From positions 1 to 34,404 of the IMG/VR virus record IMGVR_UViG_3300031825_000053: a DNA stretch of 34,404 nucleotides; one strand, 5' to 3'. Origin of the DNA: a virus. A program made the translations under genes and the position numbers. Below, one piece after another: positions 144-29,789 of the stretch (positions are counted from its first letter, which is position 1; every line of letters begins with the position of its first letter). The notes under the pieces are model-generated. The model had not been told where the DNA came from and did not search any database. It saw nothing but the letters and a program-made list of their open reading frames with translations.

Positions 144-1115
144 GTGCTCGACTTCTCAACCGCGCCAGTAAACGCGCCCACCGCAGAGTTGACGGATGAT
201 AGTGACGCCCTGCGTCAGTATCTCATCTCGACGCTCGAGACGTGGCTGCCCAGACTGCTACCTGCTGGCAAGACGCATTCAGGTGAGTTCAGGGCGGGCA
301 GCGTGCATGGTGAGGCTGGCGGATCGTTCTCAATGCGCCTCACGGGGCAACGCCGCGGCATGTGGATGGACCACGCGACAGGCGAGGGCGGGGATGTGTT
401 TGACCTGCTGATGGTCACGGAGGGTGTGGACTTCGCAGGCGCGATCGCACTGGCGCGCGATATGTCTGGGCTCAAGATGCGCGCCACGCCACCGCATAAG
501 ACGCGCGAAAGATCGGCGGAGGATGACCGCAAGATCGTAGAGAAGGTGCTGTGGTATGCAGACGCGCAGCGCGTCATCCACACGAACTATCTGCGGAGCC
601 GCGGGATCACGATCGACGCAGAGGATCTGTTGTCCCACAGGTCTCTAAGGCACGTGAGCGGCACGCTACACCCGGCCATGCTGGGCAAGGTGCGCAACGT
701 GGCGGGCGATGTGACAGGGCTGCATCGCACGTATCTTTCTGCGGACGCACGGGGAAAGGCCGCCGTCGAGCCGAACAAGATGATGCTGGGGCGCACCCTG
801 GGCTGCGCTGTCCGGCTGGCACCGCATAGTGATGTGCTGGGGCTTTGTGAGGGTATCGAGACGGGGCTGTCGGTGATGATGCTGTTTCCGGGGGTGCCGG
901 TGTGGGCAACGCTGTCGACGAGTGGGATGCGCGGCGTGGTGTTGCCTGACGCAGTAAAGGAGGTGGCGATCTTCGCAGACAACGATCAGCCTGGGCGCGA
1001 CGCAGCGAATGTGTTGAGTGTGAGGTTGATGAGTGAGGGGCGGCGGGTGAGGGTGGTGTATCCAAAGGACAATTACGGGGACTTCAATGATGAGCTCGTT
1101 CAGGGTAAAGCTTAG
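144..1115 (+). CDS. Toprim-domain DNA primase
   Basis: This 323-residue protein probably makes RNA primers for phage DNA replication together with the helicase encoded downstream. The N-terminal half has the GGSFSMRLTGQRRGMW / DHATGEGGDVFDLL pattern of phage primases of the CHC2/VirE-associated group, but no zinc-binding Cys/His set. The C-terminal half is a Toprim fold: LCEGIETGLS supplies the catalytic Glu (about E236), and IFADNDQPGRDAA supplies the metal-binding DxD (D279, D281). The start is GTG immediately after the previous stop; no other start fits as well. The 3' end overlaps the next small gene by 29 bases. Its first residues (LDFSTA) match those of the helicase at 1666, which is unusual. 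The family call is firm; the replication role is inferred from family and neighbour. Confidence 0.85.
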   Translation: MLDFSTAPVNAPTAELTDDSDALRQYLISTLETWLPRLLPAGKTHSGEFRAGSVHGEAGGSFSMRLTGQRRGMWMDHATGEGGDVFDLLMVTEGVDFAGAIALARDMSGLKMRATPPHKTRERSAEDDRKIVEKVLWYADAQRVIHTNYLRSRGITIDAEDLLSHRSLRHVSGTLHPAMLGKVRNVAGDVTGLHRTYLSADARGKAAVEPNKMMLGRTLGCAVRLAPHSDVLGLCEGIETGLSVMMLFPGVPVWATLSTSGMRGVVLPDAVKEVAIFADNDQPGRDAANVLSVRLMSEGRRVRVVYPKDNYGDFNDELVQGKA

Positions 1116-1665: not shown

Positions 1666-3297
1666 ATGGACTTCTCAACCGCCCTCGTGGTGCAGGACGA
1701 GACTGCGCCGCCGACAATTGAAACGAAACTTGACGCACTCCTTCACGGGTGCGGCAAGGTTATAGAGCCACGCGAGTTCGATCAAATACAGCAGGACGCG
1801 GAGTGCTCCAATAGCAGCACAACCTCCGAGCAGATGCGCCAGCTGATGCAGGACTTGCGCGTCACGTGTCGCAACGACGCCATCGGTGTTGACAAGGTGC
1901 TCAAGGTGCTCGCCAACAAGACGGGCACCTCTGTCGTCGTGCTCCGCAAAGTGTATGCGACGATCGCGAAGCCGGTTGTGCCGGTGCGCAAGGACTTCAC
2001 CGGCCGCTCCATCGACGAGCTCACCGGCAAAGACCTGTGGGACTTCCTCGACTTGGACCAGGACGAGAACGGCACGGCGGTGCTGGATAACATGAACAAC
2101 GCCATCAAGGTGCTCGAGGCAGACACCAGGCTCAAGGGTCACATCTGGTTCGATGAGTTTGCGAACAGGATCCGCACGCGCCTCATCCTGAATGACGGTG
2201 GCGTTGCGCTGGGTCCTGAGCGCGAGTGGACGGACACGGACGACAAGCTTCTCACGCCCTACATGCAGGGCGTCATCGGCATGCCGTGGATGCGTGTGCA
2301 GACGGTCTCGGACGCGGTGCAGGCGGTGGCGCACCGCAGGCATGTGAACCCGCCGATGGAGTGGATGGAGTCTCTGCGTTGGGACGGCGTAGAGCGCCTA
2401 CCCACGGTCCTGCGCGACGCCTTCGGCGCCCCCGACACCGCATACATATCAGCCGTAGGCCGATGCTTTTTCGTGTCCATCGTGGCCCGCGTCTACCGGC
2501 CGGGCTGCAAGGTGGATACCGTGCCAGTGTTCGAGGGCGGGCAGGGCATGGGCAAGTCGCAGGCGATCGGCATTATTGGCGGGGAGTGGGGCAAGGAGTG
2601 CCACGAACAGGTGACAAGCAAGGACTTCTACCAAGTGCTAGACGGCAACATGGTGGTCGAGATCGCGGAGATGCACTCGTTCAGCCGGCATGAGGTGGAG
2701 CGCATCAAGGGCGTCATCTCGTGTGCCGTGGACCGTTACAGGGCGCCTTACGCGCGGCACGCGGAGAGCCATCCGCGGCGCACGGTGCTGGTTGGCACGA
2801 CGAACCGGGACGACTGGAATTCGGACGAGACAGGTGCGCGGCGCTTCTGGCCGATCCCCTGCACCAGAGTAGATTTGGGCTACCTCAGGACCTGGAGGGA
2901 TCAGCTATTTGCGGAGGCTGTGGCGCGTCTGAAGCGCGACGAATCGTGGTGGGACGTGCCCATCATCGAGGCTCGAGAGCAGCAGTCTCAGCGCCGCCCT
3001 GACGACGTTTGGACGGAGTTTGTGCGGACCTATGTTGACGGCGGCCAGTGCGAATATGGGCAGGGCGTGCGCTCCGATATGTTCGAGCGGAAGGACGAAG
3101 TGCGGGTTTCGGAGGTGCTTCGGGGTGCCCTGCGCATCCCGATCGATCGGCAGGACAAGCATGAGCAGATGCGGGTAGCTGCAATTCTTACACTGTTGGG
3201 TTGGCGCAGGGCGCAGCGCGGGCCGGCGGGGTCGCGATACAAATGCTGGATTCGTCCAATGGATTTTCACGATGCGGTATTCGAGCCGTCGGAATAG
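1666..3297 (+). CDS. VapE-type (virulence-associated E) replicative helicase/ATPase
   Basis: A 543-residue P-loop ATPase of the VapE/VirE group, which acts as phage or satellite replication helicase. Walker A is FEGGQGMGKS (about 289-298). VVEIAEM (330-336) is Walker B-like. VLVGTTNRDDWNSD followed by GARRFWPI (about 374-397) is the sensor region typical of the family. The N-terminal ~180 residues lack a recognisable domain and may bind DNA or the primase. ATG 1666 follows the previous stop by four bases with only a weak ribosome binding site, implying coupling. With the Toprim primase at 144 it forms the usual primase-helicase pair, with primase and helicase as separate proteins. Confidence 0.85.
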   Translation: MDFSTALVVQDETAPPTIETKLDALLHGCGKVIEPREFDQIQQDAECSNSSTTSEQMRQLMQDLRVTCRNDAIGVDKVLKVLANKTGTSVVVLRKVYATIAKPVVPVRKDFTGRSIDELTGKDLWDFLDLDQDENGTAVLDNMNNAIKVLEADTRLKGHIWFDEFANRIRTRLILNDGGVALGPEREWTDTDDKLLTPYMQGVIGMPWMRVQTVSDAVQAVAHRRHVNPPMEWMESLRWDGVERLPTVLRDAFGAPDTAYISAVGRCFFVSIVARVYRPGCKVDTVPVFEGGQGMGKSQAIGIIGGEWGKECHEQVTSKDFYQVLDGNMVVEIAEMHSFSRHEVERIKGVISCAVDRYRAPYARHAESHPRRTVLVGTTNRDDWNSDETGARRFWPIPCTRVDLGYLRTWRDQLFAEAVARLKRDESWWDVPIIEAREQQSQRRPDDVWTEFVRTYVDGGQCEYGQGVRSDMFERKDEVRVSEVLRGALRIPIDRQDKHEQMRVAAILTLLGWRRAQRGPAGSRYKCWIRPMDFHDAVFEPSE

Positions 3298-3300
3298 GGC

Positions 3301-3437
3301 TATGAACCCACGTGAACCACCTCAAAACCATATTCTGAAAGTCATAGTGTAAATGTGATGTCGGGAGCCTGAAAAATACTATAGGGGAGTTGGAGAGGTC
3401 GCTTTTAGGTGGTTTTGGTGGTTCAGGTGGGTGCATA
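3301..3437. repeat. Long imperfect inverted repeat bounding a non-coding stretch
   Basis: Left arm 3301-3329 and right arm 3411-3437 are reverse complements over about 25 of 27 paired positions, with one 2-base bulge and two mismatches. They flank 81 bases that include GAAAAATACTATAGGGG (about 3371-3387), which looks like a -10 element. The structure lies directly between the helicase stop and the resolvase start. It could be a replication origin, a structured RNA or a miniature inserted element; the sequence alone does not decide. Confidence 0.65.
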
Positions 3438-3451
3438 AAGGGAGAAAACCT

Positions 3452-4027
3452 ATGACATTCAAATACTTCGTCGGCGTAGACCCCGGTTTGACAGGTGGTG
3501 TCGCGATAATCGATGGCGAGGGAGACGTAGTATTGTTGCAGACTATACCAACCCAGGCACAGGGCGGGTATATCAAGCGCCGCGTTGACCCTCGAGCGTT
3601 TAGGGCGATGCTGCTCAGCGCGATCTACATGCCGGCACTCTGCGCAGTCGAAAGCGTCTGGGTCCGTCCCACCGATACCCGCACCAGCGGTGCCAGCCTG
3701 GTTCAATCAGCCGCTCTGGCAGAGGGTGTACTGGTGGGCCTGGGCGCCACAGTTCTGCGCCCGCTCCCGCAACTGTGGAAGCGAGCCATGGGCGTTACGG
3801 GGTCCAAGGAGACCAGCCTACAGCGCGCTAGGGCGCTGTGGTCTGCCCTAGTGTGGACTGACCACAACCTTGCGGAGTCGGCCTTGCTGGCGCGGTTCTG
3901 CTTCTTGCAAAGGGACAAGCCGCTGGAAGCGTGGGAAGTGGTAGAGAAAAAGAAACGCCCTAGCAAGGGCGCTAGGGCGAAGTGGGGAGGGGCGCAGCAG
4001 GGCACGCAGGGCAAGCAGGGCGCCTAG
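3452..4027 (+). CDS. RuvC-like Holliday junction resolvase
   Basis: A 191-residue RNase H-fold nuclease that would cut branched DNA intermediates during recombination or before packaging. It opens with FVGVDPGLTGGVAII, where D10 is the first metal ligand. AVESVW gives E67, and WTDHNLAESALLA (about 136-146) holds the last acidic residues, as in phage RuvC homologues. ATG 3452 is preferred because AAAGGGAG sits nine bases upstream; an in-frame GTG at 3431 lies inside the inverted repeat. The C-terminal ~40 residues are Lys/Gly/Gln-rich and overlap, on the other strand, a leftward terminator and a small ORF, so the tail may be shaped by those elements. Confidence 0.85.
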   Translation: MTFKYFVGVDPGLTGGVAIIDGEGDVVLLQTIPTQAQGGYIKRRVDPRAFRAMLLSAIYMPALCAVESVWVRPTDTRTSGASLVQSAALAEGVLVGLGATVLRPLPQLWKRAMGVTGSKETSLQRARALWSALVWTDHNLAESALLARFCFLQRDKPLEAWEVVEKKKRPSKGARAKWGGAQQGTQGKQGA

Positions 4028-4620: not shown

Positions 4621-5193
4621 CTAGGTTAAAAAGTCCGCGAAGCACTCGTAGACGATCTGCGTGAATTCGTTGCGAGACGCATCCCTCGCGGCAGCCCACG
4701 CAGCATCCCACGCAGCATCCCACGCAGCAGCCCTCGCGGCAGCCCTCGCGGCAGCCCTCGCGGCAGCCCTCGCGGCAGCCCACGCGGCAGCCCTCGCAGC
4801 AGCCCTCGCGGCAGCCCTTAACGATGCGTCGCCGGTCATGAGGTAATCCAGCACCACCTGCGGCGCGTCCCACAGGTCAACTACTAAAAGCGCTTCCATA
4901 CGCGCGAAATGACGCAGCAGTTCAGTTGCGTCCGTGCGGGCGATGATCCTGCGACGCCGGCACACCAGCTTGTCGTCCTGCTCTGCCTCGATTCCCTCGA
5001 TCTCGACAAGGCACAGCGTTGTGCCGGGCGCGTACTGCAGCGCATCGAACGGATTGCGTGAGGCATGCAGCCCACTGGCGCAAATCTTCACCGGGCCTTT
5101 GTGTTCCAGCCATACGCCATCTGCGGGTATGGGCGTCCCATCGCGCAGCGTCTCGCCTACGAAATGCCAGGCAAGTTCTGGTTTCTTTTTCAC
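4621..5193 (-). CDS. DUF7666-like protein with an alanine-rich 4-residue repeat tail
   Basis: A 190-residue protein. Residues 1-115 fit a phage/bacterial family I recall as DUF7666: WHFVGETLRDG near the start, GLHASRNPFDALQYAPG in the middle, DKLVCRRRRIIARTDATELLRHFAR, then VVDLWDAP. The following ~50 residues are a degenerate repeat of Ala-Ala-Arg/Trp-Ala, predicted as a long helix with Arg/Trp on one face, encoded by twelve 12-base units (4679-4822). The last 15 residues leave the repeat. Its start overlaps the end of the upstream gene (ATGA). Biochemical function is not known to me. Copy-number change in the repeat would alter helix length without a frameshift. Confidence 0.7.
   Translation of the reverse strand: MKKKPELAWHFVGETLRDGTPIPADGVWLEHKGPVKICASGLHASRNPFDALQYAPGTTLCLVEIEGIEAEQDDKLVCRRRRIIARTDATELLRHFARMEALLVVDLWDAPQVVLDYLMTGDASLRAAARAAARAAAWAAARAAARAAARAAARAAAWDAAWDAAWAAARDASRNEFTQIVYECFADFLT
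4679..4822. repeat. Twelve tandem 12-base units within the DUF7666-like gene
   Basis: Plus-strand unit gcagccctcgcg. Four consecutive identical copies lie at 4727-4774; the others differ by one to four bases (gcatcccacgca, gcagcccacgcg, gcagcccttaac). Each unit encodes four residues on the minus strand. Confidence 0.9.
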
Positions 5194-7737: not shown

Positions 7738-7766
7738 TTGAAAGTGTAGTGAGAGGCGTTGTATAT
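7738..7766 (+). promoter_or_regulatory. Putative promoter for the late operon
   Basis: TTGAAA (7738-7743), a 17-base spacer and GTATAT (7761-7766). The -35 part is embedded in TGTTGAAAGTGTAG, identical over 14 bases to the site near 1282. A 4-bp hairpin GGGG-AAACTT-CCCC (7769-7782) follows in the leader, directly before the GGAGG of the small terminase gene. Confidence 0.55.
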
Positions 7767-7791
7767 GCGGGGAAACTTCCCCGGAGGCACG

Positions 7792-8388
7792 ATGGCACGA
7801 CAAGGCAAAAGTGACGCGCAGCGTCAGAATGTGACGCAAATTGCGGCACTTCCTCTGGCGTCGCGGATATTGGAGGACGCCGAACCGGAAGCGGACATAG
7901 ATGAGAAAAAGTTAACTGAACCTCAAAGAAAGTATCTTGAAGCGATAGTTAACGGCAACAATCAGACGGACGCGGCGCGGCTCGCCGGCTATAAGTTCCC
8001 AGAGCAGCAGGGCTACTACTTAGCGCGTCAGCCGAAGATGCGGGCGTTGATCCGTCAAGCCCTACTCAACCGCTTGGAAAGCGACGGCGCAGCCATTGCG
8101 GTCAATACCCTCATCAAGATAGCCCAGAACGAAAAGGCCCCAGCCGGAGCGCGCGTCATGGCGTCCAACTCGCTCCTGGATCGCGCCGGAATCGCATCAA
8201 AAGTGCTGGAAAAACAACGGGAAGGCGGGCAAAAGGCGCTGTCGGACATGACCGTGGACGAGCTTGACGCCTTCATACAGGCGGGACAAGCAGCGATCAG
8301 CAAGGCGCGCGACGCCGCAGCCATCGAAGGCACGGCCGTGCCTGTGGATAACCCCGATACTGCGCAGAATAGCGCGCAGCAGGGGTAA
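7792..8388 (+). CDS. terS: Terminase small subunit
   Basis: A 198-residue DNA-recognition subunit of the packaging motor. The N-terminal part carries a helix-turn-helix (KLTEPQRKYLEAIVNGN / NQTDAARLAGY, about 38-66), as in small terminases that bind the pac or cos site. The middle is helical for ring oligomerisation (LLNRLESDGAAIAVNTLIKIA) and the C-terminus is disordered and Ala/Gln-rich. ATG 7792 follows GGAGG at 7783-7787; a TTG 11 codons upstream is rejected because it falls in the promoter and hairpin. The large subunit is unusually far away (about 3 kb), separated by fibre genes. Confidence 0.8.
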   Translation: MARQGKSDAQRQNVTQIAALPLASRILEDAEPEADIDEKKLTEPQRKYLEAIVNGNNQTDAARLAGYKFPEQQGYYLARQPKMRALIRQALLNRLESDGAAIAVNTLIKIAQNEKAPAGARVMASNSLLDRAGIASKVLEKQREGGQKALSDMTVDELDAFIQAGQAAISKARDAAAIEGTAVPVDNPDTAQNSAQQG

Positions 8389-11378: not shown

Positions 11379-14075
11379 GTGTATGAATCAAATTCCAGAA
11401 CAAGTAGGTATCCTTGGTGGGCTGGTGCCTCGCTGATGTCTAATGTCGTCGAATCTGCGCTCGAGCAGCAGATCAAGGCTGCCAAGCGCCTGAAGGCGAT
11501 CAAGCGGGCTCGCGAGAGCTTGCTGGCCTTCATTCGATTCATCCACCCTGACCCTGAGCACGAAGACGACCCGGACTACTCGACGTATGAGGAGACGCCG
11601 GTCGCGAAGCTGCTCTGCGAGGTCATGGAGAAGGTGGAGCGCGGCGAGCTCCTGCGCGTCTGCGTCAGCATTCCGCCGCAGTTCGGAAAAGAACTCAGCC
11701 ACTCGACGCCTATGCTCACCCCATCCGGATGGACAACGCACGGCTCCTTAAAGCCCGGTGACATGGTGTATGGCGGAAACGGCCTACCTGTTCGCGTGGT
11801 TGCGGTGTCAGAAGATTGCGATTCGACTCACGAGATCGAGTTCGTGGACGGACAGGTCATTCGTTGTCATGCAAATCACGAATGGTTGGTGCATTGCAAT
11901 GATCGGCTTGGAAAGCCGCTTGCGGTAATGGAGACGAAGGAAATGGAGCGCGCCGGAGTGTGGATTGGAGAGCGTGGCAAACGCGGAAGCCGCGCTCGCT
12001 TTAGCGTGGATTGGGTTGCCATCCGCGGTGAAAGCAAGCAACTACCCATTGAACCGTATGCGCTTGGCGCATGGCTTGGTGACGGAACATCGACGTCCCC
12101 GTGTATTTCTTTTGCGGAAGAAGATCGCGCTGTGGCGGAAGCCATTGATGTCACCTATCCGCGCAGTTCGTGCGCCGTCCACAAAACAACCGGTGTTCGT
12201 CGATCATATCATGGCGGAGGATTGCATAAGGCGCTGCGCACCAACGATCTACTGAGCAACAAGCATATTCCAGTTGACTACCTTACGGCCTCCTTTGAGC
12301 AGCGTCGTAAGCTGCTAGCGGGGTTGATGGACACTGATGGGTATATTCATCACCCAACGCAACGCGCTCAATTCAGCACGGTCAGTAGGCGGCTCGCGGA
12401 TGATTTCGCTACGCTCATTGGCACATTTGGAATGCGCGCGACGATATGTGAAGTTGCGCCGTCATTGTCGTCCTCTGGGATACAGGGTAAGCGCCCGGTG
12501 TTTCAGGTGACGTTTTCACCAACCATCGCGATTGACTGCGTGTTGCCACGAAAGGCAACAAGCGGGTTCGTCGTTAAGAATCGTCGCCGCGGGATCGTTT
12601 CGATACGTCGCTGCGATCCAGAGCCCGGTCGCTGTATTCAGGTGGAAAACGACGATGGCATTTATTTGGCCGGGCGCGGATTGGTGCCAACCCATAATTC
12701 CACCATCATATCTCGCGCGTTCCCAGCGTGGTGTGCCGGCCGCGCTCCACACAAACACCTGATGCTCGGCACCTACTCGCAAGACTTCGCTGAAGACTTC
12801 GGCGGCGAGGTGCGCAACATCATGCAGTCCAACGCTTTCCGCCAGGTGTTCCCTCATTTCGGTCTGCGTAAGGGCGAAAAGGCCAAGGACACACTCGTCA
12901 CCACGAAGGGGGGCAAGATCAACTTCCTGGGCCGTGGCGGCGCCGGCACCGGCAAGCCAGCGGACACGTTCATCGTCGACGACCCGATCAAGGACGACCA
13001 GGAGGCTCAGAGCGCGGCGACGCGGAAGACCGTCAAGTCCTGGTTCAGCAAGGTATCGTTCAGCCGAATCCACAAGTTCTCTCCCGTAGTGATCGTCCAC
13101 ACGCGCTGGCACGAGGACGACTTGATCGGCTGGCTCGTGGACCCGTCGCACCCCGAGCACAACCCCGCGATCGCTAAGAAGTGGACCTACATCAACATCC
13201 CTGCGGTGGTCACAGAGCAGAAACTTGCGTCTGCGCTGGGGCTCACGCTCGAGCGCCCAACGGACCCGGACATCATCGCGCAGTTCGGTGACCGGCCGAT
13301 GGCGTCGCTGTGGGAGAACCGGAAGTCGCTCAAGTTCCTCGCGGAGGCATGCCAACTCGACAAGCGCGGCTTCTACGCGCTCTACATGGGGCAGCCGGCA
13401 CCGGAGGACGGCGACTACTTCAAGGCCGCGGACATCGTGGGGTATTCATCCATTTCTGCGTTGCCCAGGAACATCCACGTCTACGGTGCCTCGGACCATG
13501 CGCTGACCACTGACGAAGAGAACGACGCTACGTGCCTGGGGTGCTTCGGCGTCGACGAGAACGACGACATCTGGATTTACCCGGACCTGTTCTGGGAGCG
13601 CGTCGAGACCGACGAGACTTTGGACGCGATGATGGATCGCATGAAGCGGCACAAGCCGATGGTGTGGTGGGCTGAAGACGAGCACATCAACAAGTCGCTC
13701 GGGCCGTTCCGCCGCAAGCGGATGATGGAGGAGAAGGTCTACTGCACCGTGGATGGGATTTCACCAGGCCGCAGGGACTTGAAAGCGAGGGCGCGCTCCA
13801 TCCAAGGCCGCATCCAGATGCGCAAGGTCCACTTCCCGACGTTCGCGCCGTGGTGGCAGGAAGCGAAGAACGAGATGATGAAGTTCCCGAACGCGACGCA
13901 TGACGACTTCGTGTCGTTCCTCGCGTTGATCGGGCTCGGTCTGTCGAAAGAGGTGGCCGCGGCGCCTGAGAAGAAAACTCAGACATATGCAACGGGAACC
14001 TTCGGATGGTTTAAAGCGCGATCTAAGCTGGAAAACAATCAGGCGCGGCTCAAGCTGGTCGCGAGCGGAAAATAA
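11379..14075 (+). CDS. terL: Terminase large subunit interrupted by an intein
   Basis: The packaging ATPase-nuclease, translated as an 898-residue precursor; removal of the intein (residues 105-440) would leave about 562 residues. The Walker A motif PPQFGK/S is split by the intein between Lys and Ser. Walker B is TFIVDDPIKDD (about 530-540), VVIVHTRWHEDDLIGWL is the following conserved motif, and the C-terminal RNase H-like nuclease has acidic residues in YGASDHALTTDEEND and THDDF. The GTG start at 11379 has AAGG five bases upstream; ATG 11436, which overlaps the stop of a 17-codon ORF (ATG 11383), is an alternative giving MSNVVESALEQQ. Without splicing the ATPase site is broken, so packaging should depend on it. 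Confidence 0.85.
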   Translation: MYESNSRTSRYPWWAGASLMSNVVESALEQQIKAAKRLKAIKRARESLLAFIRFIHPDPEHEDDPDYSTYEETPVAKLLCEVMEKVERGELLRVCVSIPPQFGKELSHSTPMLTPSGWTTHGSLKPGDMVYGGNGLPVRVVAVSEDCDSTHEIEFVDGQVIRCHANHEWLVHCNDRLGKPLAVMETKEMERAGVWIGERGKRGSRARFSVDWVAIRGESKQLPIEPYALGAWLGDGTSTSPCISFAEEDRAVAEAIDVTYPRSSCAVHKTTGVRRSYHGGGLHKALRTNDLLSNKHIPVDYLTASFEQRRKLLAGLMDTDGYIHHPTQRAQFSTVSRRLADDFATLIGTFGMRATICEVAPSLSSSGIQGKRPVFQVTFSPTIAIDCVLPRKATSGFVVKNRRRGIVSIRRCDPEPGRCIQVENDDGIYLAGRGLVPTHNSTIISRAFPAWCAGRAPHKHLMLGTYSQDFAEDFGGEVRNIMQSNAFRQVFPHFGLRKGEKAKDTLVTTKGGKINFLGRGGAGTGKPADTFIVDDPIKDDQEAQSAATRKTVKSWFSKVSFSRIHKFSPVVIVHTRWHEDDLIGWLVDPSHPEHNPAIAKKWTYINIPAVVTEQKLASALGLTLERPTDPDIIAQFGDRPMASLWENRKSLKFLAEACQLDKRGFYALYMGQPAPEDGDYFKAADIVGYSSISALPRNIHVYGASDHALTTDEENDATCLGCFGVDENDDIWIYPDLFWERVETDETLDAMMDRMKRHKPMVWWAEDEHINKSLGPFRRKRMMEEKVYCTVDGISPGRRDLKARARSIQGRIQMRKVHFPTFAPWWQEAKNEMMKFPNATHDDFVSFLALIGLGLSKEVAAAPEKKTQTYATGTFGWFKARSKLENNQARLKLVASGK
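11691..12698 (+). mobile_element. Class 3-like intein with LAGLIDADG endonuclease, in Walker A of the terminase
   Basis: A 336-residue in-frame element between FGK and STIIS. Block A is ELSHSTPMLTPSGW, so residue 1 is Glu, not Cys/Ser. Block B is IRCHANHEWLV with His63 and Trp65. LGAWLGDG (125-132) and LLAGLMDTDG (208-217) are the two LAGLIDADG helices of a homing endonuclease. The C-terminal blocks are GRCIQVENDDGIYLAG with Cys315, then GLVPTHN with Thr334 and terminal Asn336; the next residue is Ser. The Trp/Cys/Thr set and the non-nucleophilic first residue define class 3 inteins, which start splicing from the block F Cys. Base composition looks more AT-rich than the flanks, consistent with later arrival. 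Confidence 0.88.
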
Positions 14076-14087
14076 GGGGAGCACACG

Positions 14088-16217
14088 ATGCCATTGGACG
14101 ATACGCAAGAACTCGACGTCGTAACGCAGGGTCCGGCCATCGACGGCTCCAACGCGGGACAATCATCTTATGCGCCCGAAAAGAGGGCGGAGCCGCCGGA
14201 GGAGCGCAAGGCGCTGGTGAAGCGCATCCTCTCCACCATTAAAGAGGACGCGAAGCATTGGGAGTCGAACTTCAAGCAGATGCGCGAGGACCAGAAGTTC
14301 GCGCGCGGCAAGCAGTGGAGGGGGCAGACCGCGGACGACGATCGTTACGTCGCGAACATCACGCAGCGCCACATTCAGCAGCGCGTGTCCTCGCTCTATG
14401 CGAAAAATCCGACCGCCGTTTCCAAGCGCAGGCAGCGCATGGAATACACGATATGGGACGGCGAGCCCGAGTCGCTGGCGCAGGCGCAGCAGATGCTCAC
14501 GATGGCGAGCCAGGTGGCGCAGGATCCGGCGATGGCGGCCGGCGCGGCCATGCAAGACCCCGCTGGCGCGGCGCAGATGATGCAGCAAGCGATGGGCGCG
14601 CAGGAGCTCATGGCCGACATCCAACAGGCGCAGCAGCGTATCAAGATGTATGACCGCATTGGCAAGACGATGGTGTGCCTGTTCCAGTATTACATGGGCG
14701 AGTCGCAGCCGCCGTTCAAGCTGCGCGCGAAGCAGCTGGTGCGCCGCGTGGTCACGTGCGGCGTGGGCTACATCAAGCTCGGCTTCCAGCGCATCAACGC
14801 AGGGCAGGCGAACCCCGACATCAACGCCAAGATCGCGGACTTCACGACGCGGCTGGATGCGATGCGCGCCCTGTCGGAGAAGGTGGCGGAGGGAGAGTTG
14901 GACCACAACGCAGCGGAGGTGGAGGAGTTGCGTCTTGGTCTGACCGACATCCAGAAGAAGGCGGAAGTTATCGTGCGCGAGGGTCTGATATTCGACTTCC
15001 CGAAGGCGACGGCCATCATCCCTGACGCCGGCGTCGAGGAGTTGAAGGGCTGGGTTGGCGCCAAGCACGTGAGCCAGGAATTCCTGTTTGCGCCCGCCGA
15101 AGTGACCGCCATCTATGGTATCACGCTCGAGAAAGGGAGGTATTCAGGGTTCACGAAATCCGGGCGCAAGAAGAATGACGGTGACATGGCGAAGGTGTAT
15201 GAGCACTACGACAAGACGACCGGGCTCATGTACACCGTGTGCGAGGGGTATTGCGACTTCCTCGAGGAACCGCAGTCCCCGCCCATCGAGATAGACCAGT
15301 TCTTCCCGTTCTTTCCGCTGTCGTTCAACGACGTCGAAGACGAAGAGAACCCGTTCCCTCCGTCCGACGTGCAGCTCATCAAGCACCAGCAGCGTGAGAT
15401 CAACCGCGCGCGCGAAGCCCTGCGCCAGCACCGCATAGCGAACGGGCCGAAGTATGCCGCTGGCAAGGGAATGCTCGGGGAGCAGGATAAGACCAATCTG
15501 CAGGCTGGAGTCGACCACGAAGTTATCGAACTCTCTGCGCTGAACGCGGGGCAGAAGCTCGACGAGATCCTGCAGCCCATCAAGATGCACCCCGTCGACC
15601 CGGCGCTCTACGACACCGGCCCGCAAAAGGAGGACGTCCTGCTCGCCGTGGGCTCGCAGGAAGCGAACCTTGGGCCGACCAGTGGCGTGACCGCCACGGA
15701 ATCGTCCATCGCGGAGGGCTCACGCCTGTCTTCCACCGCGTCGTGCATCGATGACGTGGACGACTGCTTTACGCTCCTGTTCCGCGCTGCCGGACAGGTC
15801 ATGCTTACCGAAGTGTCCGCGGAGACGGCCAAAAAGATCGCCGGCCCGGGAGCGGTGTGGCCGGAGATGTCGCGCGAGGAAATCGCGGAGGAGCTTTACC
15901 TGGAGCTCGAGGTCGGGAGCAGTGGGCGGCCGAACAAGGCGCAGGAGATCGTCAACCTAGAGCGCGTTACCCCGCTGCTGATTCAGGTTCCGGGCGTCAC
16001 GCCCAAGTGGATCGCGAAGAAGCTGGTCAGGGCCGTGGACGAGAACATCGACCTGTCAGAGGCGTGGGTGGACGGCATGCCATCGATCACGTCCATGAAC
16101 GCGGTCAAGACGCCGGAGGGCGCCATGGGCATGGACCAAGGCGGCGAGGGCGCGCAGAACGCGCAGCAGGCGCCAGGCAAGGAGGGGAGTCAGGCTCAGT
16201 TCCCGTCTGGAGCGTAG
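14088..16217 (+). CDS. Portal protein
   Basis: A 709-residue portal, the dodecameric ring through which DNA enters and leaves the capsid. The N-terminal region after a disordered 30 residues reads KALVKRILSTIKEDAKHWES, then REDQKFARGKQWRG and YVANITQRHIQQRVSSLYAKNP, as in podoviral portals of about 700 residues. An Ala/Gln/Met-rich insertion lies at about 135-185. The C-terminal half contains PSDVQLIKHQQREINRAREAL and SSIAEGSRLSSTAS, typical of the portal stem and wing. The tail is Gly/Gln-rich. ATG 14088 follows AAGGGGAG. It comes directly after the large terminase, the standard order. Confidence 0.8.
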   Translation: MPLDDTQELDVVTQGPAIDGSNAGQSSYAPEKRAEPPEERKALVKRILSTIKEDAKHWESNFKQMREDQKFARGKQWRGQTADDDRYVANITQRHIQQRVSSLYAKNPTAVSKRRQRMEYTIWDGEPESLAQAQQMLTMASQVAQDPAMAAGAAMQDPAGAAQMMQQAMGAQELMADIQQAQQRIKMYDRIGKTMVCLFQYYMGESQPPFKLRAKQLVRRVVTCGVGYIKLGFQRINAGQANPDINAKIADFTTRLDAMRALSEKVAEGELDHNAAEVEELRLGLTDIQKKAEVIVREGLIFDFPKATAIIPDAGVEELKGWVGAKHVSQEFLFAPAEVTAIYGITLEKGRYSGFTKSGRKKNDGDMAKVYEHYDKTTGLMYTVCEGYCDFLEEPQSPPIEIDQFFPFFPLSFNDVEDEENPFPPSDVQLIKHQQREINRAREALRQHRIANGPKYAAGKGMLGEQDKTNLQAGVDHEVIELSALNAGQKLDEILQPIKMHPVDPALYDTGPQKEDVLLAVGSQEANLGPTSGVTATESSIAEGSRLSSTASCIDDVDDCFTLLFRAAGQVMLTEVSAETAKKIAGPGAVWPEMSREEIAEELYLELEVGSSGRPNKAQEIVNLERVTPLLIQVPGVTPKWIAKKLVRAVDENIDLSEAWVDGMPSITSMNAVKTPEGAMGMDQGGEGAQNAQQAPGKEGSQAQFPSGA

Positions 16218-25031: not shown

Positions 25032-28000
25032 GTGGCCGACAAGACCGAACTGCTACTCGAGGCGGAGCGGCGCGGCATTCTGCCCGCCGACAAGAAGCCA
25101 CTGCTCGACGAGGCCCGCCGGCGCGGCCTGATTCCGGGTGGCGGAGCGTCATCTTCTGCGCCCACACCCGCCCCACAAGAACCCGGCCTCGCAGATCGCT
25201 TCAACATCATGGCGCGCGATGCCTTCGAGCAAAGCGGCCTGGGCACCGTTCTGCGCCGCAACCGTTCAGGACAGGCAGAGTTCGACCAGGTGGGCGACAT
25301 GGACGCTGCGCTGGGCGCGATGTCCCGCGGCGAGCGCGTGCCTCCGCAGAATCCGTATGCGCGCGTCCCGCGCGCCGCGCTCGAGCGCGCCCGAGACCAG
25401 GCGCTTGTCGACGCCGGCCGCCGGCGCGACGAATTCATGCCAGCGGAGACCGCGCGGCGCGCTGAAGTTGAGGCGCTGCCATCCTTTGCGGACGACCCGA
25501 CCCTCCTTGGCAAGGTCCAGAAGGGCGCGGTCAATTTGGGCGCCATGCTTCTCGGTGGCGCTCCGTCCCCTGAGAACTTGGTACCCGTCGGCCGCGGCGC
25601 CACGCTGGGCAGGACGTTCCTTAAAGGCGCGGGCGTCAACGCAGCCATCAACGTCCCAACGGATGTCGTGGCGCAGCAGCAGGACGTTCAACTGGGACTG
25701 CAGGACCAATACGACCCTACCCGCACGGCCATTGCCGCCGCCATAGGCGCCGCCACCGGTGGGGCGGTGAATGTTGTTCCTGACATCGCGCGCGGCGCCG
25801 CCAAGGGCATACGGCGCGTGTTCGAGCCGTCGGCGCAGCAGGTTGACCCGTCGCTGCCGGCGCTGCCGTCGCGCGTGGACACGCCGGACGTGAACACCAT
25901 GTATGTCGATCCCGCCGGGCGGGCCGGGACGGCGCAGGACCGCACGGCCATGGACTTCGGGCCGGACGTAGCCCGAGCCGCCGACACTACCGCCATCGAG
26001 GGGCAGTTTCGGCGCATACAAGATCCCACTGCCGAGCCCGCGCGCACCGCGCTGCCTTACGACGACACGCGCCCGATCCTCGCGGACGGCTCGCGGCCTG
26101 ACCCTGCGGAGTGGGATGCGATACAGGCACGCCAGCAGGAGATGCAGGACACCGGGCTCACGCCGGACGTCCTCGCCGCGCAACGCGCGCGTGATAACCC
26201 GACACCGGACACCGGCGTCCAGATGGAGCCCGATGTTCTGCGTCGCACCGTTGGCGACATACTGGCTGACCGCACGATCGACCCGCGCAAGACGGTGCTG
26301 GAGATCATTCAGGAGGCGACGGGCGTTCGCACCCCACCGGCCGCGAAGGAAACGAAGGCGCGTGCCGCGGACGTCAAGGCCGCCATGGACGAGCCGGTCG
26401 GCATCAAGCAGTCGCCCGACCAACTCGAGGAGCCGCTGACCGCCGCAGAGGCGATGGACCGGCAAGCGCAGGCCCGGCGTGGAGTCACAGACCCGGCGCA
26501 GACGTTGACGCCGGAGCAGATGGGCGAGCCGCCGGCGGTGACGCGCGCGCGGGAGCGGGGGTCTAAAGCTAGTCCGCAAAGCGCGGCTCCCGACGTTCAG
26601 CAGCCTAATGTTGGGCCGAGCGTTCAGGAAAAGCCGGCGTTCACGAAACGTGAACAGGCGCCGGAAACGAACGCACGCCCCGAACCGGAAAGCGATCAGA
26701 CGCGCAGCGAAGCGGCTGCCGCGGAGAATTTTGGTCGCGTGACCGGAGATATAAAAGGCGGCAGCACGAATGACCTGTGGCGCGCATCGCACTACGCCAG
26801 TTCCATTATCACCAATCTACAGAAGAAGGCGCAGCGCGGCGAACCGCACAACGCGGACATGCTGCGTTCGCTGGAGGTTGAGCGCGACGCCATTAAGGCG
26901 GAATGGCTTACTCGTTCAGATCGTTTCTCCAATGGCGATAAACCCCTCAACACAACCTCTGCGCCCGAACCGCGCCAAGGAGTCTCAAATGAAAAACATG
27001 CCCCCGATCAAAGCGTCCGTCAAACAAATGATGTCGGAATCGGCGGAGACGGAAGTCCCGAACGAGGAGTCGGCCAAGACGGAGCTCGCGGAGAACCACA
27101 AGCCCAAGTCGATGAAGGAAGCAATCGGCAAGGCGGTCGGCAAGAAAGTGCCGCCCCCGCCGAAGAAGCGCGCCGCGTCGATGAAGGAGGCGATGGAGGA
27201 GAGCATCAAAAAACCCCAGAAGAAAAAGGGGTAGCGCGGGAGGAGGTGCAAGATGCTGCTGAGCCCGGAGGACGACCCCGCGCTGGCGTGGATGAGCGCG
27301 CACGAGTGGGCGAAGGTGAGGCTGCACGAGTGGCTGCGGAGGGTAATGGTGGATCTTCTGCGAAGGGAGACTCGCCTGACTCGTCGCCGTTCGGCTCGGG
27401 AGAAGCGAAGCTTTACGACTTCGGCGCAGCAATAGGAGAGGGCATCACCAAGGCCGCACGATGGGCGCTTGGCGGCGACTACACTGAGGCGAAGGGCGAC
27501 CTGACCAAGATCGCCGCTGCGGTGAAAACGATGTTCGAGAGCAAGGGCAAGCCCAAGCCGGGCGAGGGCGACCCGCGCAACATCGGCAAACAGCTTTTCG
27601 ACGCCATGTTCGCGTCAGCGCATGGTGACATGATAGGGCTCTACAACAAGTTCAAGGCGCGCGGCGCTGACTCGCCCACGTTCAAGCGCATCCTGGACCA
27701 GACGTTCGCGCGCGCTGGAACCGGAGAAGGAACCGGGCGCACGTTCGACGAGGCGTATGACGCGCGCGTGAAGCGGCAACTGAACAAGGTGGACGATATC
27801 AGCGACGCCATGAAGGCGGCGAACGTCACGGACGAGCAGGTGTGGAGGCAGGTTACGAACCAGGCCGCACGTCAGGGTCAGGTCGGCAAGATCGCAAAGA
27901 TGGTCGAGGACTTCTTCGGTGAGTCGCTGAAGTATCAGCGCGACGCGGGCGCAGATATTGGCGAGAGCAAGAACTACTTCCGCCGCATCGTTGATCGCAA

Positions 28001-29789
28001 CAAGGCGTATGAGCAGCGCGCGAAGTTCGTTGACCAGGCGGCCAAGGTTTATACGGAGGATCAGGGGCTGTCTGCGGTAGACGCCAAGAAGGCGGCTGAA
28101 GCCTACTGGCACCGCGTCGTCTACGGCGTCGAGGGCCGCCCGGGCATGCCCGGCCGCTCCGGCACGGAGAAGTTCGCGCGAGAGCGCGAGTTCGGCCCCG
28201 CCGCAGAGAAGCATCTGGGCGACTTCTACCGCAAAGATATCATCGGCACGCTTGCGGAATACGCTACGCAGTCCGCGCGGCGCGCGGAGATCGCGCGCCT
28301 GTGGGGCGACAACTTCTCCCGCTGGACTGAACTCGAGTCCGCCATGAAAAAAGAGGGCGTGGGCGACGCCTTGCCGCAGCTTCGCGACTACGTGGAGATG
28401 ATCGCCGGCGTGAAGCAGTTCGACGTGAGCAAGATTGAGCGTATCGCCTCATCCTGGTCTCGCACGTGGTTCAGCCTCGGGTCGCTGACGTGGGCAACGA
28501 TGACCTCGCTGCCAGAGCTCGTCATGCCGGTCGTGCGCGCGAACATGGATGTCAAGGTCGCATGGAACGGCTACATCGGCTACCTCAAGGAAGCTCTGAA
28601 GGCTGCGCCCGGGCGTGACGCCAACTACTTCCGGCGCCTCAACGAAGACATCGGACTCGTGGCCGGCGCGCACTATGGCGCTCTGTCGGCGCAGCGGTTC
28701 GGCACGGAGTCCGCGCCCGGGTCGTATCAGTCGCGCGCCATCGAGAAGTTCTTCGCGCGCAACTTGCTCGAGCCTCTGACCAACTTCAACCGCGACCTGT
28801 CGACCGCTATTGCGGAGCCGTTTATCGCCAAGCAGGCGGGGCGCGCGTTCAAGGGCGACAAACTCGCCGCGCGGGAGCTCGCGGACCTCGGGGTAGACGC
28901 CGCTGCGGTGAAGGAATTCTCCACATGGGTGAACGGGATGAAAGGAAAGGCGCCGTCCTTCGCTGACCTTCAGGCAGCGGGCAAGAATGGAGACCTCTAT
29001 ATGCTCGCGCTCCAGCGATTCTCAGATCAATCCGTCATGCGCCCGACGGCCGCCACGAAGGCGAAGGGTGCGAACAACCCGGGCGTGATAGGACTGCTCT
29101 ATCACCTCCAGTCGTTCAATTACGCCTACAGTAAGAACGTGCTGGGGCGCGCGAAGAATCGCGTCATGGGTGAGGACGTGTCCGGCATGGACCGCATGCG
29201 CTATGGCCTGCAAGCTCTGTCGGGCATGGCGATGATAACAGCCCTGCAATATGCTCTGGGTGAGGCGCGCGACTCGAGTGCGGAGGCGCTGACCGGCAAG
29301 AAGAAGGACGTCACCTACACTCCCGCAGCGAAGGTTGAGCGCGCGCTGTCACGCGCCGGCGCGTTCGGCGTGGCCGATCCTTACCTGCAGATGCTATCCG
29401 GGGTGCGCTACCAGCGCCCCATCTCATCCGCCGCGGGCGGCCCGGTCATCGGCACAGGATTCGACATGGCGCAGACCGGTGTGAATATGTGGCTGAACAA
29501 CAGCGAGAACACGAACAGCGCGGAGCGCCGCTTCGCGCGCAACCTCTATCGCTACGGCGTGGAGCCCGGCGTGAACCTCGCGCTGACGAGCCTGCCGATC
29601 AACCCGGCTACCGCACTGGTGACGATGGTCGCGCTGCCCGCGATGCGCGAGTCGTTCGTGGACGACCTGGCTGGAGAGCACGGCCGTCAGAAGCCGCGCG
29701 AGATTCAAGGGTTGAGTGAAGTCATCGCCGGCAAGGCGAAATCCGGTCGTTCCTCCGGGCGTGAATCCGGGCGCTCCTCCGGCAGGTGA
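25032..29789 (+). CDS. Giant internal virion/ejection protein (1585 residues)
   Basis: The largest gene, in the position of T7 gp16-type proteins that are injected and build the periplasmic DNA conduit. It opens with a doubled motif LLLEAERRGILPADKKPLLDEARRRGLIP in two halves (residues about 7-35), common at the N-terminus of large phage ejection proteins. Residues 250-800 are largely disordered and Pro/Gly/Glu/Arg-rich; residues 653-801 are overprinted by two other genes. The remainder is helical, with LYDFGAAIGEGITKAARWALGG (about 790-815) and hydrophobic segments near 1145-1165 (WFSLGSLTWATMTSLPELVM) and 1390-1410 (LQALSGMAMITALQYALG). The C-terminus repeats Ser-Gly-Arg. No lysozyme or transglycosylase motif is evident. 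The start is the GTG at 25032, two bases after the previous stop. Confidence 0.75.
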   Translation: MADKTELLLEAERRGILPADKKPLLDEARRRGLIPGGGASSSAPTPAPQEPGLADRFNIMARDAFEQSGLGTVLRRNRSGQAEFDQVGDMDAALGAMSRGERVPPQNPYARVPRAALERARDQALVDAGRRRDEFMPAETARRAEVEALPSFADDPTLLGKVQKGAVNLGAMLLGGAPSPENLVPVGRGATLGRTFLKGAGVNAAINVPTDVVAQQQDVQLGLQDQYDPTRTAIAAAIGAATGGAVNVVPDIARGAAKGIRRVFEPSAQQVDPSLPALPSRVDTPDVNTMYVDPAGRAGTAQDRTAMDFGPDVARAADTTAIEGQFRRIQDPTAEPARTALPYDDTRPILADGSRPDPAEWDAIQARQQEMQDTGLTPDVLAAQRARDNPTPDTGVQMEPDVLRRTVGDILADRTIDPRKTVLEIIQEATGVRTPPAAKETKARAADVKAAMDEPVGIKQSPDQLEEPLTAAEAMDRQAQARRGVTDPAQTLTPEQMGEPPAVTRARERGSKASPQSAAPDVQQPNVGPSVQEKPAFTKREQAPETNARPEPESDQTRSEAAAAENFGRVTGDIKGGSTNDLWRASHYASSIITNLQKKAQRGEPHNADMLRSLEVERDAIKAEWLTRSDRFSNGDKPLNTTSAPEPRQGVSNEKHAPDQSVRQTNDVGIGGDGSPERGVGQDGARGEPQAQVDEGSNRQGGRQESAAPAEEARRVDEGGDGGEHQKTPEEKGVAREEVQDAAEPGGRPRAGVDERARVGEGEAARVAAEGNGGSSAKGDSPDSSPFGSGEAKLYDFGAAIGEGITKAARWALGGDYTEAKGDLTKIAAAVKTMFESKGKPKPGEGDPRNIGKQLFDAMFASAHGDMIGLYNKFKARGADSPTFKRILDQTFARAGTGEGTGRTFDEAYDARVKRQLNKVDDISDAMKAANVTDEQVWRQVTNQAARQGQVGKIAKMVEDFFGESLKYQRDAGADIGESKNYFRRIVDRNKAYEQRAKFVDQAAKVYTEDQGLSAVDAKKAAEAYWHRVVYGVEGRPGMPGRSGTEKFAREREFGPAAEKHLGDFYRKDIIGTLAEYATQSARRAEIARLWGDNFSRWTELESAMKKEGVGDALPQLRDYVEMIAGVKQFDVSKIERIASSWSRTWFSLGSLTWATMTSLPELVMPVVRANMDVKVAWNGYIGYLKEALKAAPGRDANYFRRLNEDIGLVAGAHYGALSAQRFGTESAPGSYQSRAIEKFFARNLLEPLTNFNRDLSTAIAEPFIAKQAGRAFKGDKLAARELADLGVDAAAVKEFSTWVNGMKGKAPSFADLQAAGKNGDLYMLALQRFSDQSVMRPTAATKAKGANNPGVIGLLYHLQSFNYAYSKNVLGRAKNRVMGEDVSGMDRMRYGLQALSGMAMITALQYALGEARDSSAEALTGKKKDVTYTPAAKVERALSRAGAFGVADPYLQMLSGVRYQRPISSAAGGPVIGTGFDMAQTGVNMWLNNSENTNSAERRFARNLYRYGVEPGVNLALTSLPINPATALVTMVALPAMRESFVDDLAGEHGRQKPREIQGLSEVIAGKAKSGRSSGRESGRSSGR
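26989..27234 (+). CDS. Overprinted Lys-rich gene inside the giant ejection-protein gene (+1 frame)
   Basis: An 81-residue frame entirely inside 25032-29789, shifted +1. AAGGAG (26978-26983) is correctly spaced before ATG 26989. Third codon positions are almost all G or C in this frame, as in true genes here, whereas the host frame over the same bases uses many A-ending codons and gives low-complexity sequence. The protein has PKSMKEAIGKAV (39-50), ASMKEAMEESI (63-73) and SVKQMMSESA (10-19), apparently a thrice-repeated helix, a PPPPKK linker and a KKPQKKKG tail. PKSM-x-EA-x3-AV also occurs in the scaffold protein, so a capsid-assembly or virion role is possible. Function unknown. Confidence 0.7.
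   Translation: MKNMPPIKASVKQMMSESAETEVPNEESAKTELAENHKPKSMKEAIGKAVGKKVPPPPKKRAASMKEAMEESIKKPQKKKG
27253..27435 (+). CDS. Second overprinted gene inside the giant ejection-protein gene (+1 frame)
   Basis: A 60-residue frame in the same +1 frame, 18 bases after the first nested gene. GGAGGAGGTGCAAG before ATG 27253 is one of the strongest ribosome binding sites in the window. The product opens LLSPEDDPALAWMSAHEWAKVRLHEWLRRVMVDLL, a convincing amphipathic helical protein, and then turns Arg-rich with less natural composition. It ends at TAG 27433-27435, where the host frame becomes well conserved-looking. The start is well supported; the last third may be constrained mostly by the host frame. 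Confidence 0.55.
   Translation: MLLSPEDDPALAWMSAHEWAKVRLHEWLRRVMVDLLRRETRLTRRRSAREKRSFTTSAQQ

Follow-up and report, generated by a model that had tools for sequence, protein, structure and literature searches.

Class 3 inteins do without a nucleophile at residue 1. As set out in passages of two papers (PMC5222942, PMC7891396), they are recognized by a Trp at position 12 of block B (B:12), a Cys at F:4, and a Thr at G:5, with mostly Ser or Thr in the position following the intein (+1). A passage of the second counts 1701 of them, 82.5% with LAGLIDADG motifs, which makes the combination of this class with LAGLIDADG motifs the usual one (PMC7891396). Class 3 inteins have also been reported from phage terminases in a passage on mycobacteriophage TerL1-a, whose insertion after the P-loop Lys, directly ahead of a hydroxyl residue, is termed a classic site (PMC5050341). 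Here, we describe an insert in the large terminase gene (terL) of the IMG/VR virus record IMGVR_UViG_3300031825_000053, whose full stretch of 34,404 bases was analyzed and is called the window below. The insert lies in frame between the Lys and the Ser of the Walker A motif, with PPQFGK upstream and STIISRAF downstream. Going by its sequence and predicted fold, we take it to be a real, intact class 3 intein; it is a further member of a large and already described class, of which P-loop examples in terminases are also known. In full, it is very likely a complete class 3 intein with a LAGLIDADG homing endonuclease at the Walker A Lys/Ser site of the terL of a tailed phage, which would behave as a selfish and constitutively splicing element.

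Boundaries, class, and fold of the terminase insert

The interrupted gene is recognized as that of the large terminase by its matches to phrog_38 (expectation value [E] of 3e-85, for the part after the insert) and Terminase_6N (E of 1.6e-8), together with small terminase and portal genes nearby. The boundary of the insert is fixed by empty sites and by structural superposition, and Glu is hence residue 1. In insert-free homologues from IMG/VR, all 13 readable junctions run from HGK or MGK straight into Ser or Thr, e.g., PPRHGK followed by SELASRRFPAW or, in the homologue closest by identity (L008), GPQMGK followed by SEIISRAAPAW; a 14th (L013) covers the later part of the C-extein only, with the junction outside its span. 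The junction is also empty in both of the two phage records checked. In the predicted structure, Glu1 (model residue 7) superposes on residue 1 of the class 3 inteins 6riy, 6rix, and 6bs8, and Asn336 superposes on their last Asn. A preliminary sequence-only reading of this DNA had put an insert at 11691-12698 between the P-loop Lys and Ser, beginning with Glu, had proposed a search for related phages with an empty site, and had named a boundary leaving Cys or Ser at position 1 as the alternative to its view. Its placement proves correct to the base, and the shifted boundary is ruled out by the empty sites and the structure.

The sequence marks of class 3 are all present: Trp65 (B:12), Cys315 (F:4), and Thr334 (G:5) (the Trp-Cys-Thr [WCT] set), Glu1, and Ser+1, along with His63 (B:10), His335 (G:6), and Asn336 (G:7), each where the sequence-only reading had located it. 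All of these except Glu1 and Ser+1 are invariant in an alignment of 16 sequences, comprising the window together with 15 records, from phages or plasmids, picked from the match lists. Broader counts come from relatives found among the matches listed in pattern searches, which are samples and not censuses. The patterns for the first set made no use of the splicing residues, and the ranking favored similarity to the 16-sequence alignment; three short pieces (two of L144 and one of L153) were dropped, leaving 175 of 178. Of 96 frames added later, 91 were long enough, 230 of the resulting 266 rows were left after removal of identical cores, and the removal of L223 and L247 (misaligned or truncated) and of further repeats left 225 non-redundant rows, with 170 as the first set. 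The added rows were partly fetched by a pattern requiring PTHN, an F:13 Gly, and one of a few residues at +1, so counts of these features are biased in the 225 rows, the first set being free of that selection; counts of Asp131, Asp214, and Asp216 are conditioned by the LAGLIDADG search patterns. Among the 170 relatives of the first set, His63, Trp65, and Asn336 are each found in 170, Thr334 and His335 in 169, and Cys315 in 167. Across all 225 rows, Trp occupies B:12 without exception, Thr occupies G:5 in 224, and F:4 is Cys in 221 and Ser in 4.

A tblastn search with the insert matched 739 of 50,697 phage records, 508 of them over at least 80% of the insert in one place (best E, 2e-71), and the matches listed are mostly annotated as terminase or helicase. 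When the PDB was searched with phmmer, the top three distinct sequences were class 3 DnaB inteins (E of 7e-19, 2e-18, and 4e-17), with intein residues 4 to 68 and 302 to 336 aligning to both DnaB intein halves in the two alignments shown. The 739 tblastn matches and the solved class 3 inteins at an E of 7e-19 exclude a chance match. Scans of viral contigs yielded one pattern match and no close relative with the intein alone, and 30 pattern matches and no relative with the N-extein. An AlphaFold2 model built from 39 aligned sequences (the window and 38 of the 42 listed relatives; mean pLDDT of 92.9 and pTM of 0.90) displays the same HINT fold as the known class 3 inteins, superposing on 6riy_A with a Z of 20.0 and a root mean square deviation (rmsd) of 1.5 Å over 127 residues at 38% identity (model residues 7 to 343 on chain residues 1 to 146). 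Over its whole length, it matches PI-SceI (1jva_B; Z of 28.7 and rmsd of 3.1 over 325).

Taking the WCT set, the DnaB intein matches, and the model together, the class 3-like call of the sequence-only reading holds at every point of sequence and fold where it could be checked. A class 1 assignment, for which Cys, Ser, or Thr is required at residue 1, was rejected in view of Glu1. In a class 2 intein, Ser+1 would attack the N-terminal junction directly and Cys315 would be dispensable. The lack of a nucleophile at residue 1 would suit such an arrangement, but the WCT set is complete and conserved and the closest matches are class 3 structures, and with the class definitions in the passages of PMC5222942, these leave it hardly any probability. 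The two LAGLIDADG motifs, intact as had been claimed, retain their acidic residues (Asp131 in the first and Asp214 and Asp216 in the second), placing the insert among LAGLIDADG endonucleases, and Pfam LAGLIDADG_3 recognizes it with an E of 1.7e-8 (a score of 35 bits, the cut-off being 22.5).

Table 1. Features of the window; block names and positions follow passages of PMC5050341, PMC7664689, PMC5222942, PMC7891396, PMC12245125, PMC6195587, PMC7360933, and PMC5259590
Feature	Position	Strand	Details
Class 3 intein with LAGLIDADG endonuclease (predicted)	11691..12698	+	336 aa, Glu1 to Asn336 (ELSHSTPM...LVPTHN)
Block A	11691..11729	+	ELSHSTPMLTPSG; Glu1 where Cys or Ser is usual
Block B	11850..11885	+	GQVIRCHANHEW; catalytic His63 (codon 11877), class 3 Trp65 (11883)
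LAGLIDADG motif 1	12060..12086	+	ALGAWLGDG (listed also as LGAWLGDGT); Asp131 at 12081
Lys191	12261..12263	+	in NKHIP; conserved endonuclease-domain residue, K in 168/170 relatives
LAGLIDADG motif 2	12312..12341	+	LLAGLMDTDG; Asp214 and Asp216
Block F	12627..12674	+	GRCIQVENDDGIYLAG; Cys315 (12633), expected to be the first nucleophile; F:13 is Gly323 (12657)
Block G	12681..12698	+	LVPTHN; Thr334, His335, Asn336
N-extein	11379..11690	+	ends ...VCVSIPPQFGK; start GTG 11379 or ATG 11436; joined to C-extein in insert-free relatives
C-extein	12699..14075	+	Ser+1 (12699-12701), remaining ATPase, nuclease domain; stop 14073-14075
Large terminase	11379-14075	+	open frame of 898 aa; phrog_38, Terminase_6N
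Primase	144-1115		
VapE-type helicase	1666-3297		
Holliday junction resolvase	3431-4027		
Small terminase	7759-8388		upstream of large terminase
Portal	14088-16217		next gene after large terminase
Major head protein	18061-19107		

Residue 1 and the HxxH inteins

The absence of an N-terminal Cys or Ser, which the sequence-only reading had pointed out, is not special, since a non-nucleophilic residue 1 belongs to the class definition. Residue 1 in the 225 rows is Ala in 124, Leu in 35, Gln in 25, Pro in 13, Glu in 8, Asp in 5, Gly in 4, Arg in 3, Ser and Met in 2 each, Asn in 1, and Cys in 1 (L109), with a gap in 2. Besides the window, the Glu1 rows are L016 (an isolated Bacteroides phage with the insertion at the window's site), L039, L094, L240, L251, L258, and L270. 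The idea that Glu1 is unique was thus rejected; judged from these sequences, it is uncommon. On an intein tree of 160 rows, 67 of whose 155 inner branches are weakly supported, Glu1 takes eight changes for eight rows and Ser at F:4 two changes for four rows; the group table from this tree, which covers labeled rows only, has two changes for each.

Block B of the window reads HxxH (with His60), whereas DnaB-type class 3 inteins have DxxH. In the 114 DxxH rows, residue 1 is Ala in 98, F:13 is His in 72, and a Cys is present at alignment position 46 in 104. The 67 HxxH rows, the window among them, have Leu (27), Gln (25), Glu (6), or Ala (6) as their main residues at position 1, Gly at F:13 in 67/67, and Cys46 in 0/67; a residue other than Asp or His stands at position 60 in the other 44 of the 225. 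Within the first set alone, which was unselected on F:13, Gly likewise occupies F:13 in 39 of 39 HxxH rows, and the F:13 Gly/His60 pair extends to isolated phages, namely Bacteroides phages BF702P1 and BK649P1 and Gordonia phage Verity. Correction for relatedness leaves three pairs only for the comparison of His60 with His at F:13.

Position 60 also provides a lead concerning residue 1, in that an acidic residue 1 appears to avoid Asp60. Asp60 is found in 0 of 13 rows with an acidic residue 1 and in 113 of 210 with another residue there (Fisher, 7e-5, which is overstated because related rows are counted). The relatedness-corrected test, on the tree of which residue 1 switches between acidic and other 12 times, yields nine pairs on supported branches, with a mean of 1.4 in which Asp60 differs and none in the wrong direction. 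Given that Asp62 lies near Ala1 in Mycobacterium smegmatis DnaBi1, according to a passage of PMC6195587, charge repulsion would be a natural reading of this avoidance.

Four inteins in open terminase frames (L038, L046, L047 [identical to L194], and L249) have a Ser codon at F:4 (TCC, TCA, TCT, and TCA, respectively), and all share HxxH, the Trp, THN, and Thr+1. Thr+1 is found in these 4/4 rows, of about two origins, versus 47 of the 221 Cys rows, a link that may be due to chance. As mutation of the F:4 Cys is reported to block splicing totally (a passage of PMC5222942), the Ser variants would be adapted, on another route, or dead; just two of them have a Cys at position 2. The passages of intein papers covered make no mention of a natural Ser at F:4, which does not show its absence from print. 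Among the oddities that came up in the analysis, these variants lend themselves best to a test.

It is possible, if rather doubtful, that the HxxH inteins make up a distinct class 3 subgroup that is frequent in phage terminases and has a rebuilt junction chemistry, its traits being HxxH for DxxH, the loss of the F:13 His, the lack of a Cys48-type partner, and Leu, Gln, or Glu for Ala at residue 1. Glu1 would then be tolerated without the block B acid, and the Ser variants would perhaps be all-oxyester. A literature search found no report of an HxxH class 3 subgroup, which does not show that none is in print. We see wider value in it because the class 3 structures that match best are DnaB inteins, including DnaBi1 with its DxxH. 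With its F:13 Gly and Ser variants, the subgroup would reveal the extent to which the active site of class 3 inteins can vary without loss of splicing, and it might yield inteins that accept a range of residues at position 1.

Predicted splicing, mobility, and gating

We propose that, on folding of the precursor, Cys315 would attack the bond before Glu1 to produce a block F branched intermediate; it would be activated by His63 and Thr334, with Trp65 packed beneath. The acyl group would then move to Ser+1, Asn336 would cyclize with the assistance of His335, and the exteins would be ligated, restoring PPQFGKST. Glu1 would simply lie on the leaving-group side of the bond that is broken, with no nucleophilic role. 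The endonuclease, for its part, is predicted to cut insert-free terL alleles at the intein site and thereby spread the intein.

The sequence data from the window fit a mobile element. The mobility considered possible in the sequence-only reading is in keeping with the intact LAGLIDADG motifs, the empty sites in related terminases, and a gap in G+C content at third codon positions (GC3), which is 0.565 in the intein, 0.75 in the N-extein, and 0.836 in the C-extein. On a tree of 43 C-exteins (omitting L015, L040, L053, L059, and all rows with an E of >1e-20), insert-bearing and insert-free terminases are interleaved, with four changes of state, and the window is sister to the intein-bearing L033, followed by the insert-free L008 and L002.

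Several points qualify this picture. F:13 is Gly in the window, where many class 3 inteins have His, and position 60 is His, not Asp; the phage records yielded no relative of more than 60% identity, with 54% the best among the viral-contig matches listed; and low intein GC3 is weak evidence for recent arrival, being a general trend seen in 80 of 92 loci, among which the window is one of the three most extreme. As F:13 Gly and HxxH depart from the structurally characterized class 3 inteins and the record is a metagenomic fragment, one might consider a decayed intein, either dead or capable of cleavage alone, in a defective phage or a chimeric record. We think this very improbable: the frame is open throughout, the catalytic residues are all kept, both exteins are intact and in frame, and the F:13 Gly/His60 pair recurs in 67 of 225 rows, isolated phages among them. 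Being common to the whole HxxH group with its intact frames, the pair is unlikely to mean inactivity.

With the Walker A motif split by the insert, it is a fair inference that the precursor lacks ATPase activity, and a report on the P-loop intein of RadA, cited in a passage of PMC6195587, is in line with ATPase loss in the precursor. The sequence-only reading had gone further in suggesting that splicing could gate packaging, an idea that found no support, as no regulation was seen. In a regulated intein, a splicing switch would hold back ATPase assembly until infection is at a late stage or a redox or metal cue permits it. The site, which deprives the precursor of Walker A, speaks for this, as does the inhibition of the class 3 intein DnaBi1, also at a P-loop site, by H2O2 and by zinc on its block F Cys (passages of PMC6195587 and PMC7360933). 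However, passages of PMC5050341 (Kelley et al., 2016) describe quick splicing for all five of the phage terminase inteins assayed there (TerL1-b, -c, and -e, TerL6-f, and Pham3880-g). We take three of these five as class 3, because TerL1-c and -e are treated among class 3 inteins there and the 16-sequence alignment shows the WCT set in a Baka-type terminase intein (L019, from phage Zelink). Further, the best-studied class 3 redox switch, that of DnaBi1, depends on Cys48 as the partner in an oxidative disulfide (a passage of PMC6195587). Its equivalent, taken as position 46 from the phmmer alignment shown for the Mycobacterium chimaera intein, is Thr46 in the window, which argues against a switch of the DnaBi1 type, and every HxxH row likewise lacks this Cys. 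As related terminases are without an intein here, a gate would presumably not be general. Hence, a regulated intein seems improbable to us, and we favor constitutive splicing.

The gene order of the window is of the tailed-phage type, and its head protein and C-terminal terminase part share 37 to 46% identity with those of Microcystis phage Mae-Yong1326-1 and Rhizobium phage RHph_N65. Elsewhere, a 12-base tandem repeat (positions 4679-4818; 11.7 copies, 91% matches) encodes an Ala/Arg/Trp-rich repeat within the reverse-strand frame 4621-5193. The frame at 25032-29789 (1585 residues, with Ser/Gly/Arg repeats at its end) has no PHROG match at an E of 0.001.

Comparison with known inteins

The terminases of L047 and L118 carry a second, class 1-like intein after about C-extein residue 133, besides the class 3 intein in Walker A; in L118 the whole of it is seen, ahead of TRWH, and in L047 a part. 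In L109 and L112, the intein lies two residues earlier (PPRH or APRH, followed by TKSEFAS); the former has its Cys1 alongside a full WCT set, and the latter, inserted at this same position, starts with Arg1 and ends in GHN. HxxH class 3-type inteins are also found on contigs binned with archaea, in metagenome-assembled genomes of Candidatus Nitrosotalea (L113, where the intein host is a P-loop protein unlike terminase) and Pacearchaeota (L116); this could reflect a virus or mis-binning. In some records (e.g., H1, H114, and H129), intein-bearing genes are labeled "exonuclease," "HNH endonuclease," or "DarB-like antirestriction," labels that we regard as unreliable because, at least in H1 (Gordonia phage Verity), the flanks read as a terminase P-loop.

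Of the described systems, the class 3 DnaB inteins (M. smegmatis DnaBi1 and M. chimaera DnaB1; 6bs8, 6rix, and 6riy) resemble that of the window in the WCT set, the HINT fold (1.5 Å), and the THN end, and DnaBi1 shares with it the P-loop insertion before Ser (a passage of PMC6195587). DnaBi1 is, however, a mini-intein without an endonuclease, with Ala1, DxxH, and Cys48, as the same source describes it, whereas the window intein has Glu1, HxxH, Gly at F:13, no Cys48-type Cys, and a LAGLIDADG domain. TerL1-a agrees in its insertion site and differs, going by passages of PMC5050341, in belonging to the Terminase_1 family with Thr at +1, against the Terminase_6N match and Ser+1 of the window. With the mycobacteriophage terminase inteins L019 and L020, the window intein shares 35% and 33% identity, respectively.

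Also comparable is the terminase intein of Bacteroides phages BF702P1 and B124-14, annotated as a hypothetical protein or terminase large subunit, which is of the same class at the same Lys/Ser site with 41% identity; that of BF702P1 also shares Glu1, HxxH, the F:13 Gly, and the LAGLIDADG domain. The nearest relative among the matches listed is L033 (3300009285_002431), with a same-site intein of 54% identity and a C-terminal terminase of 61 to 62% identity in two aligned pieces. It differs in having Leu1 and, in Walker B at about C-extein residues 90 to 405, a further intein of the class 1 type, which begins with Cys1 and ends in VHN before Cys, and so has two inteins of different chemistry in one terminase; Walker B of the window (FIVDDP) is uninterrupted. 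PI-SceI and other LAGLIDADG inteins (1jva, 7qsu) are alike in the whole HINT plus LAGLIDADG architecture (Z of 24 to 29), with 16 to 19% identity. The chemistry of PI-SceI-type inteins is that of class 1, with Cys1. To these systems, the window adds a terminase case with both Glu1 and an endonuclease from outside the mycobacteriophages, along with natural empty sites for a test of homing.

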